The position numbers were made by a program, and so were the translations under genes. From the NCBI RefSeq assembly GCF_014203155.1, contig NZ_JACHIK010000006.1:1-64000 (forward strand): a DNA stretch of 64,000 nucleotides. Reading direction: 5' to 3'. Source of the DNA: Shinella fusca (lineage in GTDB: Bacteria > Pseudomonadota > Alphaproteobacteria > Rhizobiales > Rhizobiaceae). Below are positions 49,651-62,629 of this stretch, piece by piece (the first letter of the stretch is position 1; each line of letters starts with the position of its first letter). The notes beneath the pieces were generated by a model that searched no databases, was not told where the DNA came from, and saw only the letters and a program-made list of their open reading frames with translations.

Positions 49651-51864
49651 TCAAGCGTCCAGCTCGAGCATCAGCGTCGCCAGCGGCGGCAGCGTGATCG
49701 TGGCCGCTATCCTTCCTGTTGCCTGTCTTCTCGCCTCGACGGCGCCGCCGTTCCCCTTGCCGCTGCCGCCGTAGATCTCGGCGTCCGTGTTGAGGATTTC
49801 CCGCCACCGGCCCTCCGCCGGCAGCGGCACGGCGTAGTTCTCGCGGTAGACGGGGGTGAAATTGGTGACGACGGCGATGGGCTTTTCGCCCGGCGCCTTG
49901 CGCAGCCAGGCGAAGACCGAGTTGTCGCGGTCGTCGGCGATCAGCCATTCGAAGCCGTCGCCCTCGCAGTCGCGGGCGTGCAGCGCTGCCTTGCGGCGAT
50001 AGGTGCCGTTGAGGTCGCGCACGAGGCGGCGCATGCCCTCGTGCAGCGGGTATTCGAGGAGATTCCAGTCGAGCGAGCGCGCTTCGCTCCATTCCTGCCA
50101 CTGGGCGAATTCCTGGCCCATGAAGAGGAGCTTCTTGCCGGGATAACCCCACATGAAGCCGTAATAGGCGCGGAGGTTGGCGAATTTCTGCCAGTCGTCG
50201 CCGGTCATCTTGGCGATCAGCGAGCCCTTGCCGTGCACCACCTCGTCATGGGAGAGCGGCAGCACGAAGTTCTCCGTGAAGGCATAGAGCAGGCCGAAGG
50301 TCATGTCGTTGTGGTGGAACTTGCGGTGCACCGGCTCGCGCGAGAGATATTGCAGCGTGTCGTGCATGAAGCCCATGTTCCACTTGAAGCCGAAGCCGAG
50401 GCCGCCGTCATGGACGGGCGCGGACACCTTCGGCCAGGAGGTGGATTCCTCGGCGATCGTCAGGATGCCGGGATGGCCGGCATAGACGTGGGCGTTCATG
50501 GACTGGAGGAAGCGGACGGCCTCCAGGTTCTCGTTGCCGCCGTACTCGTTCGGCACCCATTCGCCGTGCTTTCGCGAATAGTCGAGGTAGAGCATGGAGG
50601 CGACCGCATCGACGCGCAGGCCGTCGAGATGGAACTTCTCGGCCCAGTAGAGCGCGTTGTTGATGAGGTAGGAGAGCACCTCGGCGCGGCCGAAATTGTA
50701 GATCGCCGTGTTCCAGTCGGGGTGGAAGCCCTGCCGCGGGTCGGCGTGCTCGTAGAGCGCGGTGCCGTCGAAGTGGCCGAGGCCATGGGCATCCGTCGGG
50801 AAATGCGCCGGCACCCAGTCGAGGATGACGCCGATGCCGACCTTGTGGCAGCCGTTGACGAAGCGGGCGAAGCCTTCCGGCTCGCCGAAGCGGGCCGTGG
50901 GCGAATAGAGGCCCGTCGTCTGGTAGCCCCAAGACGGGTCGAAGGGATATTCGGAGATCGGCAGGAACTCGATATGGGTGAAGCCCATGTCGACACAGTA
51001 GGGGATCAGCCGGTCGGCAAGCTCGTCCCAGGTGAGGAAGCTGCCGTCGTCGTGCCGCTGCCAGGAGCCGGCATGGACCTCATAGATCGAGATCGGCTGG
51101 CGGCGCGCGTCGGCGGCGGCCCAGTGCGCAAGATGCGCCTCGTCCTCCCAGACCTGCTCGATCGGGCCGGTCGTCATGGAGGCGTTGGCAGGGCGCAGTT
51201 CCGAGCGGCGGGCGAAGGGGTCCGCCTTCAGCGGCAGCACCTCGCCCTGCGCGCCGACGATCTCGAACTTGTAGGCATGGCCCTCGGCGATGCCGGGCAG
51301 GAAGATTTCCCAGATGCCGGTATCCCGGCGAAGGCGCATCGGATTGCGCCGCCCGTCCCATTCGTTGAAATTGCCGACGACGGAGACGCGCCGGGCGTTC
51401 GGCGCCCAGACGGCGAAATGGAAGCCGTCGACGCCTTCGAGCGTCATCGGATGGGCGCCCATCTTGTCGAAGAGGCGAAGGTGCGAGCCCTCGCGGATAT
51501 AGTAGTCGTCCATCGGGCCGAGGACCGGGCCGAAGCTGTAGGGGTCGGTCACCACCCATTCGCCGCCCTCGTTGCGGGCGCGGTAGCGGACCGGCTGGAG
51601 CTTGCGCAGGGAAACCTCGCCGGCGAAGATGCCCGCCGGATGGACCTGCGTCAGCGTGCCGATCTGCCGGCCGGAAAGCGTTTCGGCGGTTACCTCCACG
51701 GCGCCGGGCAGGAAGCAGCGGGTGACGTACCTGTCGCCCTCGGCATGGGGGCCGAGGACGGCGAAGGGGTCCCAGTGCCGTCCTTCCAGGATTGCGTCGA
51801 TGTCCGTCTTCGCCAGAAGCTCTGACGGTGTTTCCGTCGTGCCTTTTTTCGGCGGTGCGGTCAT
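49651..51864 (-). CDS. glgB: 1,4-alpha-glucan branching enzyme
   Basis: A 737-residue GH13 branching enzyme that makes alpha-1,6 branches. Domain order: N-terminal N1 and CBM48 domains (residues 1-240), GH13 barrel, C-terminal beta domain. The nucleophile is D419 in LRVDAVAS and the acid/base is E472 in TIAEEST. ATG at 51864 follows GGGGAG and overlaps the glgP stop by one base (TGATG). The same frame stays open for 2.2 kb upstream through glgP, but that is a shadow of glgP, not a fusion. Confidence 0.97.
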   Translation of the reverse strand: MTAPPKKGTTETPSELLAKTDIDAILEGRHWDPFAVLGPHAEGDRYVTRCFLPGAVEVTAETLSGRQIGTLTQVHPAGIFAGEVSLRKLQPVRYRARNEGGEWVVTDPYSFGPVLGPMDDYYIREGSHLRLFDKMGAHPMTLEGVDGFHFAVWAPNARRVSVVGNFNEWDGRRNPMRLRRDTGIWEIFLPGIAEGHAYKFEIVGAQGEVLPLKADPFARRSELRPANASMTTGPIEQVWEDEAHLAHWAAADARRQPISIYEVHAGSWQRHDDGSFLTWDELADRLIPYCVDMGFTHIEFLPISEYPFDPSWGYQTTGLYSPTARFGEPEGFARFVNGCHKVGIGVILDWVPAHFPTDAHGLGHFDGTALYEHADPRQGFHPDWNTAIYNFGRAEVLSYLINNALYWAEKFHLDGLRVDAVASMLYLDYSRKHGEWVPNEYGGNENLEAVRFLQSMNAHVYAGHPGILTIAEESTSWPKVSAPVHDGGLGFGFKWNMGFMHDTLQYLSREPVHRKFHHNDMTFGLLYAFTENFVLPLSHDEVVHGKGSLIAKMTGDDWQKFANLRAYYGFMWGYPGKKLLFMGQEFAQWQEWSEARSLDWNLLEYPLHEGMRRLVRDLNGTYRRKAALHARDCEGDGFEWLIADDRDNSVFAWLRKAPGEKPIAVVTNFTPVYRENYAVPLPAEGRWREILNTDAEIYGGSGKGNGGAVEARRQATGRIAATITLPPLATLMLELDA

Positions 51865-54323
51865 CAGGCTCCCCAGATTTCCTTGGCGTATTGGCGAATT
51901 GTACGGTCTGAGGAGAACCATCCCATGCGGGCTGTGTTCCGTATCGTCTTGGAATACCAGGTGGGCTTGTCGCTCCACAGGGCATCCACCTCGCGCTGGG
52001 CCTTGGAATAGGCGTCGAAATCGGCCGCCACCATGAACCAGTCGTGATTGTAGATACCGTCGACGAGACCCGTGAAGCGGCCGCGGTCGTCCGGCGAGAA
52101 GACGCCGGAGGAAATGGCCGCGAGCGCCTGCGACAATTCCCTCGACTGCTCGATGATGGCGCGGGGATTGTGGCCCTCGGCGCGCACCTTCGCCACTTCC
52201 TCGGCGGTCATGCCGAAGATGACGATGTTTTCCGCGCCGACATGGTCGCGCATCTCGACATTGGCGCCGTCGAGCGTGCCGATGGTCAGCGCGCCGTTGA
52301 GCGCGAACTTCATGTTGCCGGTGCCGGAGGCTTCCATGCCGGCTGTCGAAATCTGCTCGGAAAGGTCGGCGGCGGGAACCATGATCTCGGCGAGCGAGAC
52401 GTTGTAGTTCGGCACGAAGACGACCTTGAGGAGGCCGCGCACGGCTGGGTCGTTGTTGATCACCTTGGCTACGTCGTTGGCGAGCTTGATGATCAGCTTG
52501 GCGTTGTGGTAGCTCGGCGCCGCCTTGCCCGCGAAGAGCTTTACGCGCGGCACCCAGTCGAGTTCGGGATGCGAGCGGATCTGGTCGTAGAGCGCCACGG
52601 CCTCGATGATGTTGAGGAGCTGGCGCTTGTATTCGTGGATGCGCTTGATCTGGATGTCGAACATGGCGGCCGGATCGATGCGCACGCCCATGCGGCTGCC
52701 GACGAGATTGGCGAGGCGGTTCTTGTTCTCCCGCTTGATCTGCGCGAACTTCTCCTGGAAATCCTTGTCGTCGGCGAAGGGATCGAGCGCCTTCAGCGCC
52801 TCGGCATCGTCCATGAAGCCGTCGCCGATCGATTCGCGGATCAGGTTGAAGAGGCCGGGATTGCACTGCATCAGCCAGCGGCGCGGCGTGATGCCGTTCG
52901 TCTTGTTGTTGATGCGGTCGGGATAGAGCTTGTGCAGGTCCGCGAAGACCGTTTCCTTCATCAGGTCCGTGTGCAGCGCCGACACGCCGTTGATCGAATG
53001 GGAGCCGACGAAGGCGAGGTTGCCCATGCGCACGCGGCGCTCGCCCGATTCCTCGATCAGCGAGATGTTGCGGATGCGCTGGTCCTCGAAGCCCTTGTCC
53101 TTGCGGGCCTCGACGAGGATCTTGGCATTGATCGCATAGACGATCTGCATGTGGCGCGGCAGCAGGCGCTCGAAGAGCGGCACCGGCCAGCTTTCCAGCG
53201 CTTCCGGCAGGAGCGTGTGGTTGGTGTAGGCGAAGGTGCGGCGCGACAGGTCCCAGGCGATATCGAAATCGAGGCCGTGCACGTCGGTGAGGAGACGCAC
53301 GAGCTCGGCGACGGAGACGGCGGGGTGCGTGTCGTTGAGCTGGATGGCGACGGCATCCGGCAGCGAGCTGAAATCGGGATATTGCTGGAGGTGGCGGCGC
53401 AGGATGTCCTGCAGCGAGGCCGAACAGAAGAAGAATTCCTGCCGCAGGCGCAATTCCTGCCCGGCGGGCGTGGCGTCGGCCGGATAGAGCACGCGCGTCA
53501 GGCTCTCCGCCTTGTTGCTCTCGCGCAGCGCCCCGATATGGTCGCCGGCGTTGAAGGCGTCGAGCAGGATCGGGTCGATGGGGTTCGCCGCCCACAGGCG
53601 CAGCGTGTTGACGCGCTTTGCCCGCCAGCCGACGGCCGGCGTGTCGTAGGCCGTGGCGATGACCCGCTCGGCCGGCTTCCAGACGAAGCGCTGCTTGTCC
53701 TCGCCGATGTTGATGGTCTCGACCGCGCCGCCGAAGCCGATCTCGTAGGAGCTTTCGCGGCGCTCGAATTCCCACGGATTGCCGTGGGCGAGCCAGGTTT
53801 CCGGCAGTTCCACCTGCCAGCCGTCCGCCATCTGCTGGCGGAAGAGGCCGTGCACGTAGCGGATGCCGTAGCCGTAGGCCGGCACGTCGACCGTCGCCAT
53901 GCTCTCCATGAAGCAGGCGGCGAGGCGGCCGAGGCCGCCGTTGCCGAGCGCGGCGTCCGGCTCGATCTCCGCGATGACGTCGAGGTCGACGCCGAGCGAG
54001 GCGAGCGCGTGGCGCATTTCGTCCATGATGCCGATATTCGTCATGGCGTCGCGCATCAGGCGGCCGATGAGGAATTCGAGCGAGAGGTAATAGACGCGCT
54101 TGGCACCGGTCGAATAGGTGCGGCGGGTCGAATCCATCCACTTGTCGGTGATGCGGTCGCGCGCGACGAGGATGGCGGCGGTCAGCCAGTCATGCGGCTT
54201 GGCGACCTTCGGGTCCTTGCCGATACGGTATTTCAGACGTTCCAGAAGCTCTGTCGCGAGCTGTTCACGGTCAGATGAGCGGGGGGCGGGGGCTAGATCG
54301 TTGTTGGTAACCCGGTTCATCAT
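51864..54323 (-). CDS. glgP: Glycogen phosphorylase
   Basis: An 819-residue GT35 phosphorylase releasing glucose 1-phosphate from glycogen. The PLP lysine is K672 in GTGNMKFALNG. Other conserved stretches are DAALGNGGLGRLAACF, NDTHPAVSVAELVRLL and KRIHEYKRQLLN. Adjacent ATG codons (54323 and 54320) follow AAGGGG by about 11 bases. It is the first gene of glgP-glgB-glgC-glgA-pgm-glgX, so synthesis and breakdown are on one transcript. The 193-base region upstream (54324-54516) holds the promoter and the terminator of the previous gene. Confidence 0.97.
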   Translation of the reverse strand: MMNRVTNNDLAPAPRSSDREQLATELLERLKYRIGKDPKVAKPHDWLTAAILVARDRITDKWMDSTRRTYSTGAKRVYYLSLEFLIGRLMRDAMTNIGIMDEMRHALASLGVDLDVIAEIEPDAALGNGGLGRLAACFMESMATVDVPAYGYGIRYVHGLFRQQMADGWQVELPETWLAHGNPWEFERRESSYEIGFGGAVETINIGEDKQRFVWKPAERVIATAYDTPAVGWRAKRVNTLRLWAANPIDPILLDAFNAGDHIGALRESNKAESLTRVLYPADATPAGQELRLRQEFFFCSASLQDILRRHLQQYPDFSSLPDAVAIQLNDTHPAVSVAELVRLLTDVHGLDFDIAWDLSRRTFAYTNHTLLPEALESWPVPLFERLLPRHMQIVYAINAKILVEARKDKGFEDQRIRNISLIEESGERRVRMGNLAFVGSHSINGVSALHTDLMKETVFADLHKLYPDRINNKTNGITPRRWLMQCNPGLFNLIRESIGDGFMDDAEALKALDPFADDKDFQEKFAQIKRENKNRLANLVGSRMGVRIDPAAMFDIQIKRIHEYKRQLLNIIEAVALYDQIRSHPELDWVPRVKLFAGKAAPSYHNAKLIIKLANDVAKVINNDPAVRGLLKVVFVPNYNVSLAEIMVPAADLSEQISTAGMEASGTGNMKFALNGALTIGTLDGANVEMRDHVGAENIVIFGMTAEEVAKVRAEGHNPRAIIEQSRELSQALAAISSGVFSPDDRGRFTGLVDGIYNHDWFMVAADFDAYSKAQREVDALWSDKPTWYSKTIRNTARMGWFSSDRTIRQYAKEIWGA

Positions 54324-55884: not shown

Positions 55885-56772
55885 TCAGGCGGGCTGGCGC
55901 AGCGGCACGACGTCGACCGCCTGGCTGGTGCGGTGCTGGCCGTAGCCCTTGAGAACGCCGATGACGGGCGCGACGTCGGCATAGTCGCGGCCGTAGGCGA
56001 CGACGATGTGGTCGGTGCCGGCGGGAATGTCGTTGGTGGGGTCGAGCTCCACCCAGCCGTTCATGCGCCCGCACCAGCAGCGCACCCAGGCATGCATGGC
56101 GTCCGCGCCTTCCAGCCGCTCCTGTCCCGGCGGGGGAATGGTGCGCAGGAAGCCGCTGACATAGCCGGCGGGGATGCCGAGGCTCCTCAGCGCCACGATC
56201 ATCACATGGGAAAAGTCCTGGCAGACGCCGCGCTTCAGCTTGAAGGCCTCGCGCGGGGTCGTGTCGACGCCCGTCGCCTTGGGGTCGTAGGTGAAGTCCT
56301 TGTGGATGCGTGCCGAGAGCGCCGCCGCGATGGCGCGCACCGTCATGTCCGGCCGGGCGACGGTGCGGGCGTAGTTGGCGATCTCCGGGCAATCCTTCAG
56401 CCGCGGGCTCGGGCCGGTGTAATGGTGGGGCGAGGCGGGATCGAGCGACCAGCAGCCGGCGATCTCCGCGGCAAGATCGGCGACGCGCGGCGAGAAATCG
56501 GCCGCCGGCTCCGGTGCATCGACCTGCACGCGCGCCTGCATGCGGATGTCGAGTTCCTCATGCGCGCTGCGGAAGAGGATGGCGCTCATCGGGTTGCCGA
56601 AGAAATCGCGGTGGTCGACGCGCTCGCCGGGCTCCGGCGTGACGCCGACCGTGCCGGCGACGAGGCGCTGGCGGCCGGGGATGGACAGCGGCAGCACGCG
56701 CAGGATGTGCCGTCCGCCGGAGACGGGCGTGTCGTACCGGTAGCCTATATGGAGGTTGACGTCGTAGAGCAT
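55885..56772 (-). CDS. Transglutaminase-family cysteine peptidase (small)
   Basis: A 295-residue transglutaminase-like protein with the BTLCP-type N-terminal beta domain (residues 1-150) and the papain-like core. The catalytic triad is visible: C184 in KRGVCQDFSH, H227 in DAMHAWVRCW and D244 in ELDPTND. There is no signal peptide. It starts 19 bases after the ATP-grasp/alpha-E gene with GGAGG upstream, forming the third gene of the DUF2126 - ATP-grasp/alpha-E - transglutaminase operon. Families in this set are predicted to form and cleave peptide or amide bonds. The substrate is unknown. Confidence 0.93.
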   Translation of the reverse strand: MLYDVNLHIGYRYDTPVSGGRHILRVLPLSIPGRQRLVAGTVGVTPEPGERVDHRDFFGNPMSAILFRSAHEELDIRMQARVQVDAPEPAADFSPRVADLAAEIAGCWSLDPASPHHYTGPSPRLKDCPEIANYARTVARPDMTVRAIAAALSARIHKDFTYDPKATGVDTTPREAFKLKRGVCQDFSHVMIVALRSLGIPAGYVSGFLRTIPPPGQERLEGADAMHAWVRCWCGRMNGWVELDPTNDIPAGTDHIVVAYGRDYADVAPVIGVLKGYGQHRTSQAVDVVPLRQPA

Positions 56773-56791
56773 GGGTCCCGCCGTCCTCCGG

Positions 56792-59200
56792 TCAGCTCAG
56801 ATAGGTCTGGGCGAGGATGTCGGAGAGGTGCTCCAGGTCCGCCTCGAGGCGCTGGTAGACCGTATCCGTCATCGCTTCCGGCGTCAGCACGGCAAGCCCC
56901 GCGTGAAGCCGCATGGCCTCGCGGTAGAAGGGTGACATCTGGCCGTTGTCGTAGGCGTGCGGAAGCTGCTCGACCTCGTCCTTGATCTCGTCGAGCTGGT
57001 AGAGGATCGAGCGCGGGTTGAGCGGGTCGAGCGCCAGGAGGTCGGTGACGGTGAGGCGCGCGGTCGCCACGTTGTAGCGGCGGCGGTGGGTCATCACGTT
57101 GTCGCCGATCTCCAGCAGCATGTCGAGCGCGCCGTCCGGCGCGTCCTCGCCGGACATGTGGCCGAGCAGGCGCGTCATGTGCAGGCCCCGCTCCAGATAG
57201 CGGCCGATGGTGAGGAAGCGCCAGCCGGTGAAGCGGTACATGTTCTCGTGCACGAGGCCGGCGAAGCCCGCGAGCTTGCGCAGCAGAACGGTCATGGCGC
57301 GGGCCGCGTCGTCGCCGGGCTGGATGCTGACATGGAAGCGGCGGGCGGTCTTGGAAAGGTCGGTGAGCGCCAGCCAGCCGTCCGGCGAAAAGCGGTCGCG
57401 GATGGCACTCGCGGAGAAGACGGCGCTGTCGATGTTGCGGATGAGGCTCGTCGGCACGGCCTCGGCCGTGTCGATGTCGAGGGCGGCGAGATAGGCGCTG
57501 ACGTCCTTGAGGAGCGGTTGGTCCGGGTCGGCATATTCGGCGTAGCGGGCGTGCCAGGCGCGCAGGATGCGCAGCGCCCCTTCCGCCCGCTCGATATAGC
57601 GGCCGAGCCAGAAGAGGTTGTCGGCAGCCCGGCTCGGCAGGCTGGTCGGCAGGTTGCGGGTGAAGGCCTCCTCGCCCGGCAGCAGCGAGGTCTTCTCGAC
57701 CGGCTTGCCGCTGACGATCCACACGTCCGCCGCCGAGCCACCCGCCTGCATGGCGATGGCCGCGACGTTGTCGCCGGCGCCGATGCGGGCAAAGCCGCCG
57801 GGCATGATCTGCCAGCCGTCCCGCGTGCGGGCGGCGAAGACGCGCAGCGACATCGGCCGCGGGGTCAGCCGGCCGTCGACGAAGGCCGGCGTGGTGGAGA
57901 GCGTCACGGCTTCCTGCCCGACGAGCTTGGCGCCGTCGCTCGCCAGCCATTCGGCGATGGACTGCCGCGCCGTCTCGCGGAGCGTCGAGCCGAGCACGGA
58001 CCGGGCGTTGTCGTCGAAGAAGGGACGCGTCGAATAGGCCGGGCCGATGACCATGCGCTCGATATTGGCCGCGACATGGGCGCGCTCGCCCTCCTGGCCG
58101 CACCACCAGGTGGCGATGGAGGGAAGGCGCTGCTCCTCGCCGAAGAGATGGCGACAGATGTTCGGCAGGAAGGCGAGGAAGGCGCGCGTCTCGACGATGC
58201 CGGCGCCGAGCGCGTTGACGAAGGTGACGGAGCCGGCGCGCAGCGCCTCCACCATGCCGGGCGTGCCGATATGGGAATTCTGGTTGAGCTCCAGCGGGTC
58301 GGCGAAGGCGGCATCCAGCCGGCGCCAGAGCACGCCGATGGGTTTCAGGCCGGCGACGGTGCGCACCATGACCTTGCCGTCCACCACCGTCAGGTCCTCG
58401 CCCTCCAGCAGCATGAAGCCGAGATAGCGGGCGATATAGGCGTGCTCGAAATAGGTCTCGTTGGCAAGGCCGGGGGTCAGGACCGCGATGCGGTCCTCGG
58501 CGGATTTGCCGGCCTGCAGCGCGTTGCGGAAGGCACCGAAGAAGCCGGCAAGGCGGTGGGCGTGGGTTTCCGCATAGACGTCGGAGAAGGCGCGCGTCGT
58601 CGCCACGCGGTTCTCCAGCGCGAAGCCCGCGCCGGACGGGGCCTGCGTGCGGTCGGAGAGCACCCACCAGTTGCCGTCCGGCCCACGGCCGATCTCGAAG
58701 GAGACGAAGTGCAGGAAATGCCCGCCCGCCGGCTGCACGCCGACGAGGGGGCGTAGGAATTCGTCGTTGGAGGCGACGAGGGCCGGGGGAAGGAGGCCGT
58801 TCGCCACCAGCTCGTTCCGGCCGTAGATGTCGGCGACCACCGCCTCGAGCAGCTCGGCGCGCTGGACGAGGCCGCGCGACAGATGCTCCCATTCGGCGCC
58901 GTCGATCAGCACCGGGATATGGGAGAGCGGCCAGGCGCGCTCGGCGCCGGCCTCCGTGCCGTAGTCGCGGTAGAAGACGCCGGCATCGCGCAGATATCGG
59001 TCGGCGCGGGCGAAGCGGGCGGCAAGGTCCGGCCCGTCCATGCGGGAAAGGGCCTTCAGGAACGGCCGCCAGACGGGGCGGACCGCGCCGTGGGTGTCGA
59101 CCATTTCATCGGCGACCCCCGGGAGGGGCGCATAGGCGCGCGCGGGCGCTTGCCCCGCATCGGCCTGCCTGCGTTCCGCTTCCGCACCCGTGGTCTTCAA
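56792..59200 (-). CDS. Fused circularly permuted ATP-grasp and alpha-E domain protein
   Basis: An 802-residue fusion. The N-terminal 470 residues are a circularly permuted ATP-grasp domain, a predicted peptide-bond-forming ligase (VLTPGLANETYFEHAYIARY and PGMVEALRAGSVTFVNALGAGI, given at residues 240-259 and 312-333). The C-terminal 320 residues are an alpha-E domain (NLPTSLPSRAADNLFWLGRY opening). The start is TTG at 59200 with GGAGAG upstream. In some genomes these are two genes; here they are one. The family has been predicted from sequence to make a small peptide or amide. The product is unknown. Confidence 0.93.
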   Translation of the reverse strand: MKTTGAEAERRQADAGQAPARAYAPLPGVADEMVDTHGAVRPVWRPFLKALSRMDGPDLAARFARADRYLRDAGVFYRDYGTEAGAERAWPLSHIPVLIDGAEWEHLSRGLVQRAELLEAVVADIYGRNELVANGLLPPALVASNDEFLRPLVGVQPAGGHFLHFVSFEIGRGPDGNWWVLSDRTQAPSGAGFALENRVATTRAFSDVYAETHAHRLAGFFGAFRNALQAGKSAEDRIAVLTPGLANETYFEHAYIARYLGFMLLEGEDLTVVDGKVMVRTVAGLKPIGVLWRRLDAAFADPLELNQNSHIGTPGMVEALRAGSVTFVNALGAGIVETRAFLAFLPNICRHLFGEEQRLPSIATWWCGQEGERAHVAANIERMVIGPAYSTRPFFDDNARSVLGSTLRETARQSIAEWLASDGAKLVGQEAVTLSTTPAFVDGRLTPRPMSLRVFAARTRDGWQIMPGGFARIGAGDNVAAIAMQAGGSAADVWIVSGKPVEKTSLLPGEEAFTRNLPTSLPSRAADNLFWLGRYIERAEGALRILRAWHARYAEYADPDQPLLKDVSAYLAALDIDTAEAVPTSLIRNIDSAVFSASAIRDRFSPDGWLALTDLSKTARRFHVSIQPGDDAARAMTVLLRKLAGFAGLVHENMYRFTGWRFLTIGRYLERGLHMTRLLGHMSGEDAPDGALDMLLEIGDNVMTHRRRYNVATARLTVTDLLALDPLNPRSILYQLDEIKDEVEQLPHAYDNGQMSPFYREAMRLHAGLAVLTPEAMTDTVYQRLEADLEHLSDILAQTYLS

Positions 59201-59218
59201 TCAATCTCTCCAGAGGGG

Positions 59219-62200
59219 CTAGAGGCCGGGCGGCCGGCGCAGGTCCAGCGTCAGCGGGAAATCCGCCGACGGCGTTTCCGCCTGCAATCCGTAGCTGCCC
59301 GCCGTATGCCCCCACGGCTCGAACCGCGCCAGCCGGCGCGCCTCGGCCTCGTTGCCGTTTACCGGGAAGGTGTCATAGTTGCGTCCGCCCGGATGAGCAA
59401 CGTGGTAAATGCAGCCCCCGATCGCCCGCCGCGACCATGTATCATAAATGTCGAAGGTAAGCGGTGTGTTGACGGGCAGCACAGGATGAAGGCCTGAGGC
59501 GGGCTGCCAGGCCTTGTAGCGCACGCCGGCGACCGAGACGCCCTTGATGCCCGTCGCCTTCAGCGGCACGGGCCGGCCGTTGCAGGCGACGGTGTAGCGC
59601 TCCGGGTTCGCCGTCTCCAGTTTCACCTGAAGGCGCTCGACGGAGCTGTCGACATAGCGCACCGTGCCGCCGATCGCGCCTTCCTCGCCCATGACGTGCC
59701 AGGGCTCCAGCGCCTGCCGGACCTCCAGGTTGGCGCCCTCGTATTCCACTTCGCCGCAGAAGGGGAAGCGGAATTCGAGCTGGGCGGCAAACCATTCCGG
59801 GCGAAGATCGAAGCCGTTGGCGCGCAGATCGGCAAGGACGTCGAGGAAATCCTGCCAGACGTAATGCGGCAGCATGAAACGGTCGTGCAGCGTCGTGCCC
59901 CAGCGCGTAAAGCCGCCGTCCGCCGGGTTCTGCCAGAAGCGGGCGATGAGCGCGCGGATGAGGAGCTGCTGGGCAAGGCTCATGCGGGCGTTCGGCGGCA
60001 TCTCGAAGCCGCGGAATTCCACGAGCCCGAGCCGCCCGGTCGGCCCGTCCGGCGAGAAGAGCTTGTCGATGCAGATTTCCGAGCGGTGCGTGTTGCCGGT
60101 GACGTCGGTGAGGAGGTTGCGGAACAGCCGGTCGACGAGCCAGGGCAGCGGCGGCACGCCATCCGCTGGCGCGGGCACCTGCGAAAGCGCGATCTCCAGC
60201 TCGTAGAGCGTATCGTGCCGCGCTTCGTCGATGCGCGGGGCCTGGCTCGTCGGGCCCATGAAGAGGCCGGAGAAGAGGTAGGAGAGCGAAGGGTGCCGCT
60301 GCCAGTGGAGGACGAGGCTCTTCAAAAGGTCCGGGCGGCGCAGGAAGGGGCTGTCGCCCGGATTGCGGCCGCCGACGACCACATGGTTGCCGCCGCCGGT
60401 GCCGGTGTGGCGGCCGTCGATCATGAACTTGTCGGCGCCGAGGCGCGACTGGCGCGCCTCCTCGTAGACCGCCGTGGTGATGTCGACGCATTCCTGCCAG
60501 CTTGCGGCCGGGTGGATGTTGACCTCGATGACGCCGGGATCGGGCGCGACGCGGATGACGTTGATGCGCTCGTCCTGCGGCGGGGCATAGCCCTCGATAT
60601 GGACGGGTAGGCCGAGGCTTGCCGCGGCGCGCTCGGCCGAGGCGACGAGGTTGAGATAGTCCTCGATGTCGACCGTTGGCGGCATGAAGACGCAGAGCCT
60701 GCCGTCGCGCGGCTCGACGGAGATGGCGGTGCGCACATGGCCGCTTATGTCGGTGGATTGTTCGGTCTGCTGCTGCCGGCCGCCGGCAGCGGGCTGGAAA
60801 TGCGCGGCCTGCTGCGGCCGGCCGGTCTCGGCGGCAAAGTCCGGCAGGTCGGCGCGCGCGATGCTCGGGTCCATCGGGTTGATGTAGGGATAGGCGGCGG
60901 GCGAAAGCCAGGGCAGCGAATTCAGCGGCAGGCGGTAGCCGACCGGGCTGTCGCCGGGCACGAGGAACAGGCGGCCGCGGCGCGTGTGCCACTTCTCGCT
61001 CGTCCAGCGCCGGCCGCCGGCCTGCGCATTCCATGCCTGCACCGGCAGGACATAGCCGGTCGGCCGCGTCAGGCCGCGGTCGAAGACGCGGGCGATGCGG
61101 CTGCGCTCCTCCGGGTCCTCCAGCTTCGAATTGGCCGGATCGACATTGTCGGGGAGCTTCGCCTCCTTCACCAGCCATTCGGCCGGGTCCTCGAAGGCGG
61201 GAACCACCATTTCCGGGGAAATATCGAGTTCGCCGGCGATGGCGGTGAGGAGCCGGGCGGCGTCCTCCTCGGTGACGGGGCGGTCGGCGCCTTCCTCGGC
61301 GATGAGGGCCGGATCCTGCCAGATCGGCTTGCCGTCGCGCCGCCAGTAGAGCGAGAAGGTCCAGCGCGGCAGGCTCTCGCCGGGATACCACTTGCCCTGC
61401 CCGTAATGCAGGAAGCCGCCGGGCGCGAATCTTTCGCGCAGGCGCCGGATGAGGATGTCGGCCTTCTCGCGCTTGGTGGGGCCGACGGCGGCGGTGTTCC
61501 ATTCGGCGGATTCGAAATCGTCGATGGAAACGAAAGTCGGCTCGCCGCCCATGGTGAGGCGCACGTCCTGCGTAGCGAGCACGTCATCGACTTTTCGGCC
61601 GAGCGCGTTCAGCGCCTGCCAGCTCTCCTCGGAAAAAGGTTTCGTGATGCGCGGATGCTCGGCGACGCGCGTGACGGTCATCGCGAAATCGAATTCCGTG
61701 TTGGCGCTGCCGAAATAGCCGCCGGAGATGGGGGCGGCGTTGCGATAGTGCGGCGTGGCGGCGAGCGGGATGTGGCTCTCGCCCGTCAGGAGGCCCGAGG
61801 TCGGGTCGAGGCCGATCCAGCCGGCGCCGGGAATATAGACCTCGCACCAGGCATGGAGGTCCGTGAAGTCGACCTCGGTGCCGGAGGGGCCGTCGAGCGC
61901 CTTCAGGTCGGGCGTGAGCTGGATGAGGTAGCCGGAGACGAAGCGGGCGGCGAGCCCGAGATTGCGCAGGATCTGCACGAGCAGCCAGCTCGAATCGCGG
62001 CAGGAGCCCCGCGCGGCGGTCAGCGTCTCCTCCGGCGCCTGCACGCCGGGCTCCATGCGGATGACGTAGCCGATCTCCCGCTGCAGGCGCGCGTTGAGGC
62101 CGACGACCATGTCGACCGTGCGCTGGCGGGAGCGGTCGACCGTCTGCATGAACGCGGCAAGGGCCGGCGTCAGCGGCTCGGGCGTGCGATAGATCGCAAG

Positions 62201-62539
62201 GTCCTCGACGAGATCGGCCGGATAGTCGAAGGGCCAGTGCTCGGCCTCTTCCTCCACGAAGAAGTCGAAGGGGTTGTAGACCGTCATGTCGGCGACGAGG
62301 TCGACCTCGATCTTCAGTTCCGTGACCGGATCGGGAAAGACGTAGCGGGCGAGGTAGTTGCCGTAGGGGTCCTGCTGGAGGTTCACGAAATGGTTTTCGG
62401 GTGAGACCTTCAGCGAGTGGCTGATGACCCTGGTCCTCGAATGGGCCGCCGGCTTCAGCCGGATGATCTGGGGTCCAAGGCGGACCGGGTTGTCGTATTT
62501 GTAGTGGGTAAGGTGATGGATGCCGGCTTTGATCGACAT
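59219..62539 (-). CDS. DUF2126 protein with N-terminal transglutaminase domain
   Basis: An 1106-residue protein. Residues 1-290 are a transglutaminase-like peptidase with C180 ([11 protein letters not shown]), H229 ([10 protein letters not shown]) and D245 (GLDPTSG). Residues about 300-1106 are the DUF2126 domain, which has amidoligase/glutamine-synthetase-like conserved blocks such as [14 protein letters not shown] and [22 protein letters not shown] at 62539 is chosen over 62599 because [16 protein letters not shown] is the family start. First gene of the three-gene operon, 18 bases from the next. No signal peptide. Confidence 0.93.
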
Positions 62540-62629
62540 GCGTGCTGTGTCCCCCGGTGACGGTCTGGCGCCGTCATCGGGAGAGTTTGTGCAATGCAAA
62601 GAAAGATTGCAAGCGGCAATGGCCCGCCG

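Follow-up and report, generated by a model that had tools for sequence, protein, structure and literature searches.

The question raised by positions 55,885 to 62,539 of the window (the whole 64,000-nucleotide stretch analysed, positions 1 to 64,000 of contig NZ_JACHIK010000006.1 of Shinella fusca) is which of its gene products would form an amide bond. Three minus-strand genes lie here, encoding a transglutaminase-like cysteine peptidase fused to DUF2126 (gene 1), a circularly permuted ATP-grasp fused to Alpha-E (gene 2) and another transglutaminase-like cysteine peptidase (gene 3). The three features tested for membership in the DUF2126 amidoligase system were all present, namely DUF2126 with an N-terminal transglutaminase, a linked ATP-grasp/Alpha-E and a linked second peptidase with an intact triad. 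The locus belongs to a known system, in which one enzyme assignment is due for revision: the fused ATP-grasp appears to be catalytically degenerate, and the ligase assignment is moved from it to DUF2126, giving a different protein to assay.

The fused ATP-grasp domain

The features of gene 2 were as follows.

56792-59200, minus: gene 2, circularly permuted ATP-grasp and Alpha-E fusion, 802 amino acids, TTG start (reading frame, Pfam)
57701-59122, minus: ATP-grasp domain, about residues 27-500, apparently catalytically degenerate (alignments)
58643-58657, minus: residues 182-186, S-D-R-T-Q, replacing E-D-N-x-R of standalone domains, a presumed metal site (alignments)
57989-58051, minus: residues 384-404, segment in place of the standalone K....GGYG loop (alignments)
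57848-57856, minus: residues 449-451, P-M-S, replacing H-V-D (alignments)
56798-57640, minus: Alpha-E domain, E537-R538 and E670-R671 retained (Pfam, alignment)

Gene 2 was matched in Pfam by CP_ATPgrasp_2 (456.8 bits), CP_ATPgrasp_1 and Alpha-E (198.4 bits). The ATP-grasp fold is present in the fused domain; the E-x-N pair and the lysine/glycine-rich loop are not. Among glutathione synthetases and glutathionylspermidine synthetases, E-x-N binds magnesium, and ATP is bound by the lysine and the glycine-rich loop; we take E-x-N to be the metal site and the K/GGxG loop to be the nucleotide site of the ATP-grasps compared here.

A first alignment compared 127 fused ATP-grasp domains with 24 standalone ones, and positions invariant among the latter were substituted in the former. 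Two fused and five standalone domains from other groups were added for the final set of 129 fused domains (the window protein included) and 29 standalone ones, with residues numbered as in the ATP-grasp of a second module of this genome (locus L007). One wrong-frame Paenibacillus reading frame, earlier the sole standalone row with 0/5 of the tested residues, was left out of this set. The E-x-N pair was found in 0/129 fused domains, whereas E160 (2/129 fused) and N162 (0/129 fused) were each present in 29/29 standalone domains, and the GGxG loop was likewise found in 0/129 vs 29/29. Similar losses were seen at R164 (1/129 vs 29/29), K368 (13/129 vs 29/29), H426 (6/129 vs 28/29), D428 (0/129 vs 29/29) and N459, S460 and S461 (each 1/129 vs 29/29). 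The alignment is mostly ungapped over the E-x-N, H-V-D and N-S-S-Q stretches and gapped over the loop, where some lysine occurs in 49/129 fused proteins. The third presumed ligand position (D147 of L007) is D in 75/129 fused domains, and was D or E in 127/127 of the first alignment.

Loss of catalytic residues had been named beforehand in the initial annotation as the point on which its reading would fall, and to a large extent such a loss is what the fused sequences present. Judged by its residues, the fused ATP-grasp seems to be a conserved partner that is catalytically inactive. The literature searched, which misses most subscription papers, contained no account of a fused ATP-grasp that has degenerated, and an earlier notice in Iyer et al. 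2009 is possible.

When the standalone ATP-grasp profile was compared with solved structures, the sole plausible sequence match was 3n6x (the other match was an arginase, E 1), which left no ATP-bound enzyme against which to align the residues and their roles. Middling helical matches in the structure comparison of gene 2 were left uninterpreted. A tree was built from 75 ATP-grasp rows selected out of 129 fused and 30 standalone ones. It had long branches and included the wrong-frame Paenibacillus reading frame, and the fused rows fell into two pieces; constraining them together gave a higher likelihood (p-AU 0.779), so that a single clade is neither rejected nor shown.

A different set of positions is conserved in the fused domain, comprising A/G/S-D-R-T-Q, G192, E304, E337 and W366-C-G368. 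It is conceivable, though on the doubtful side, that the old catalytic site was rebuilt around this set, and that the domain was repurposed for a new ligand or chemistry serving the putative glutamine-synthetase-like peptide ligase. If this were true, a new ligand or chemistry would be present in a system of about a quarter of the sampled Pseudomonadota genomes.

The DUF2126 domain and the peptidases

The features of the other two genes were as follows.

59219-62539, minus: gene 1, transglutaminase-like cysteine peptidase fused to DUF2126, 1106 amino acids (reading frame from ATG at 62539)
61706-62539, minus: N-terminal transglutaminase-like domain of gene 1, residues 1-278, triad C180/H229/D245
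59219-61705, minus: DUF2126 domain of gene 1, putative glutamine-synthetase-like amidoligase, conserved E333, E672, N674, H719, E841, R843
55885-56772, minus: gene 3, transglutaminase-like cysteine peptidase, 295 amino acids, triad C184/H227/D244 (reading frame, Pfam)

Gene 1 was matched in Pfam by Bact_transglu_N and Transglut_core (both above cut-off) and by DUF2126 (1346 bits, cut-off 27), and gene 3 by Bact_transglu_N and Transglut_core, while none of the three operon genes was matched by any NCBIfam model. The full Cys-His-Asp triads ascribed to both peptidases are indeed in place: C180/H229/D245 was kept in 140/140 aligned DUF2126 proteins and C184/H227/D244 in 129/129 aligned small transglutaminase-like proteins, counts which take in the window proteins and two genomes present twice. 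E333, E672, N674, H719, E841 and R843 were invariant in 140/140 DUF2126 proteins; they may be catalytic-type residues, equivalent to glutamine synthetase positions. Homologues of gamma-glutamylmethylamide synthetase and of 1-naphthylamine glutamine synthetase were among the fold matches of DUF2126, which do not separate these subfamilies. By sequence, the DUF2126 profile matched only transglutaminase-like chains among solved structures.

Reading-frame calls agreed with the three same-strand genes and the spacing first proposed, with 18 bases between genes 1 and 2 and 19 bases between genes 2 and 3. The 18-base gap is contingent on the TTG start of gene 2, whose residues 1-17 are of low confidence in the structure model. 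The flanking genes, glyoxalase-like and DUF899 upstream and Tad/VWA downstream by Pfam, look unrelated to the operon. Near the operon, window positions 51864-54323 (minus) resemble, by eye only, a glycogen phosphorylase gene.

Distribution of the gene set

DUF2126 loci were collected in two sets (60 + 80 = 140), 138 of them distinct, since L047/L116 and L066/L105 are the same genomes taken twice; the 129 fused rows are likewise 127 distinct ones. A fused ATP-grasp/Alpha-E gene was present near DUF2126 in 127/140 loci (55/60 and 72/80; 125/138 distinct), and was co-stranded with it in 49 loci of the 60-locus set and 72 of the 80-locus set. Among the 13 loci without an intact fused gene, the contig end truncated the ATP-grasp in two, and a third locus was on a 3.9-kb contig. 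Therefore the fusion is the normal form of the DUF2126 module, and its description as a special feature of this locus has to be given up.

The same gene set and order occurred in many relatives, the closest named one seen being Shinella sp. PSBB067 (identity 89.4% for gene 2 and 87.5% for gene 1). These loci and the Pfam families uphold the general view of a conserved, operon-like set of amidoligase/transglutaminase type. DUF2126 was detected in 20/21 genomes of the genus, the window's genome counted, and in 84/299 sampled genomes of the phylum (Pseudomonadota), about a quarter, while Alpha-E was detected in 156/299. No activity or product was found in the literature searched for this system, which is common yet uncharacterised. 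It extends to at least two phyla besides Pseudomonadota: Granulicella (Acidobacteriota) has the identical three-gene order, and in Tsukamurella (Actinomycetota) the fused gene is followed by the transglutaminase gene, with DUF2126 not adjoining. Mycobacterium presumably has a similar gene set.

A DUF2126 gene and a circularly permuted ATP-grasp gene were also observed on a 90.7-kb plasmid of Enterobacter roggenkampii (NZ_CP116251.1, hits H62 and H110), giving a hint of horizontal transfer. A zinc-ribbon Peptidase_Mx protein is encoded on contig C20 of the Shinella fusca genome (66098-66844, locus L179), not linked to the operon here. Its homologues lie near DUF2126 in 19/140 loci, and the protein is likely a further partner of the module.

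A second module in the genome

The second module was identified on contig C5 (L007, 7847-11053, plus strand), unlinked to the window operon. It consists of genes for a standalone ATP-grasp (474 amino acids), Alpha-E and transglutaminase, with Alpha-E in the middle and no Anbu, and its ATP-grasp looks intact by its motifs. Exactly two Alpha-E matches and three Bact_transglu_N matches were found genome-wide. Alpha-E was present in 84/84 DUF2126 genomes, with at least two copies in 76/84 (counted from listings), vs at least two copies in 11/72 of the other Alpha-E genomes, which have no DUF2126. In the 60-locus set, a standalone ATP-grasp was found in the same stretch as DUF2126 in 24/60 loci. 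This co-occurrence of DUF2126 with an extra Alpha-E and a standalone ATP-grasp suggests that the two modules cooperate.

Proposed function

The operon probably builds and cuts a peptide-like molecule, which might be stored, serve as a tag or be an intermediate of nitrogen scavenging. The DUF2126 domain, with its putative glutamine-synthetase-like fold, would most likely form an ATP-dependent amide bond, for example between a glutamate carboxylate and an amine or peptide, and the two transglutaminase-like domains could hydrolyse or transfer such bonds. The fused ATP-grasp/Alpha-E protein would not be a second ligase, but a pseudo-ATP-grasp binding a ligand or holding the partners together, as a ligand sensor or scaffold. 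The window module would probably act with the unlinked paralogous module and its seemingly intact ATP-grasp, under conditions including nitrogen limitation. We give this combination of roles an even chance of being right. The make-and-cut cycle first suggested is retained in part: it could run with DUF2126 as the ligase, perhaps aided by the ATP-grasp of the second module, and not through two working ligases.

Regulation and nitrogen metabolism

A candidate regulatory site was found upstream of gene 1.

62590-62598, minus: TGCATTGCA, candidate regulatory site, conserved in Rhizobium-type relatives

TGCATTGCA occurred in 14/139 DUF2126 upstreams, that of the window among them, vs 0.16 in shuffles, and TGCATTGC in 4/21 second-module upstreams, that of this genome among them. 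Such candidate sites precede both modules in this genome and in Rhizobium-type relatives, and one regulator might serve the two. The pattern CTTGCWTT-N6-9-GCRTTGYA, derived from the upstream motif common to them and searched genome-wide, matched only the second module's own promoter and missed the window, and is therefore too tight. Sigma54-like scores of at least 9 were obtained for 25/45 upstreams of standalone ATP-grasp genes (2.4 in mononucleotide shuffles) and for 42/139 DUF2126 upstreams (10 in such shuffles), counts which are not independent because the upstream sequences are related. The second module of this genome has a weak sigma54-like match (8 of 12). Sigma54 control of the window operon was dropped as a candidate, since its upstream fell short of 10, the lowest score listed. 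Anbu is reported to be upregulated under nitrogen limitation (PMC5666114).

Another purpose for these genes would be to scavenge nitrogen by way of gamma-glutamyl-type amides. As in the pathways of gamma-glutamylated amines, DUF2126 would glutamylate an amine or peptide and the cysteine hydrolases would free the nitrogen. Expression of relatives under nitrogen limitation speaks for it. In Burkholderia cenocepacia, I35_5080-83 (DUF404/407, DUF403, transglutaminase-like and large transglutaminase-like) were NtrC- and sigma54-dependent according to PMC5491218; the large protein is taken as DUF2126 type, a reading of our own that the cited passage does not state. Two other papers report that the proteasome-like and ATP-grasp genes of P. 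putida were higher on nitrate vs ammonium (PMC8050072), and that there is an association with urea metabolism (PMC3597751). Pointing the same way are the fold matches to glutamine synthetase homologues and the Acidithiobacillus caldus plasmid NZ_CP005987.1 (L207), on which the cluster has ntrC, glnL and an APC permease gene in its vicinity. A transposase-like reading frame interrupts the DUF2126 gene of that cluster. Against this purpose, no transporter or amine catabolism gene was seen in the operon (judged from position only), the fold matches fail to tell the glutamine synthetase subfamilies apart, and the pseudo-ATP-grasp is left unexplained. Scavenging as the main role is rated unlikely.

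Two ligases and protein tagging as less likely readings, and Anbu

The initial annotation had counted two working ligase modules beside the two peptidases. The fused ATP-grasp would then be active through its replaced residues and, with DUF2126, build a peptide-like product that the peptidases trim. E-x-N and GGxG are missing in 129/129 fused domains, and among the five tested positions none is kept in 109/129 fused proteins (one in 19, two in 1). The two-ligase part of the earlier reading is probably wrong, and such a pair of active ligases is quite improbable.

No Anbu was seen in the window, as had been noted, and a search of the genome for a homologue was also negative. PF00227 matched only a protein on contig C15, read by eye as HslV beside an HslU-like gene, and an Anbu query from L053, used without a positive control, had no match in this genome. 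A closer Anbu query found Anbu in 8/15 genomes searched, and in 6/8 of those from genus g3 of the same family. It was negative in the window's genome (G000) and in six others (G043, G107, G253, G265, G194 and G197), and therefore the lack of Anbu is common to several relatives. G194 and G197 have two Alpha-E copies, no DUF2126 match and no Anbu, and six congeners have DUF2126 and Anbu.

Protein tagging and detagging, in which the ligase would add a residue or peptide to proteins and the peptidases, with Anbu where present, would remove the tag or degrade the product, is discussed in PMC6376114 and fits the Anbu genes adjoining 7/140 DUF2126 loci. Against it stand the genome's lack of Anbu and the Yersinia Anbu, which in that paper showed neither peptidase activity nor a specific partner interaction. 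This explanation is rated improbable.

Comparison with known systems

RloABC and RimK/RimB likewise combine an ATP-grasp with a transglutaminase-like protein and a protease at a single locus, as described in the available part of PMC12239564. They differ in having a RimK-type ATP-grasp, a membrane-bound inactive transglutaminase and an aspartic peptidase, and Alpha-E/DUF403 does not occur in that part. Compared with the glutamine synthetase superfamily, DUF2126 is fused to a transglutaminase-like peptidase, has low identity, and its activity is putative. The solved structure 3n6x, a putative glutathionylspermidine synthase of Methylobacillus flagellatus, has E-D-N, GGYG, H-V-D and N-S-S-Q, whereas the fused protein lacks all four.

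The Anbu operon (ATP-grasp, Alpha-E, transglutaminase and Anbu) has homologous ATP-grasp, Alpha-E and transglutaminase parts in the window's genome. The second module carries these first three components, Anbu itself not being found in the genome, whereas the window module has the ATP-grasp/Alpha-E fusion and DUF2126. The closest likeness is to the DUF2126/CP-ATP-grasp/Alpha-E/transglutaminase amidoligase system of Iyer et al. 2009, as represented in citing papers: the window shares its Pfam families, with gene set and order as in relatives, and differs from it in a fused ATP-grasp that appears to be catalytically degenerate.
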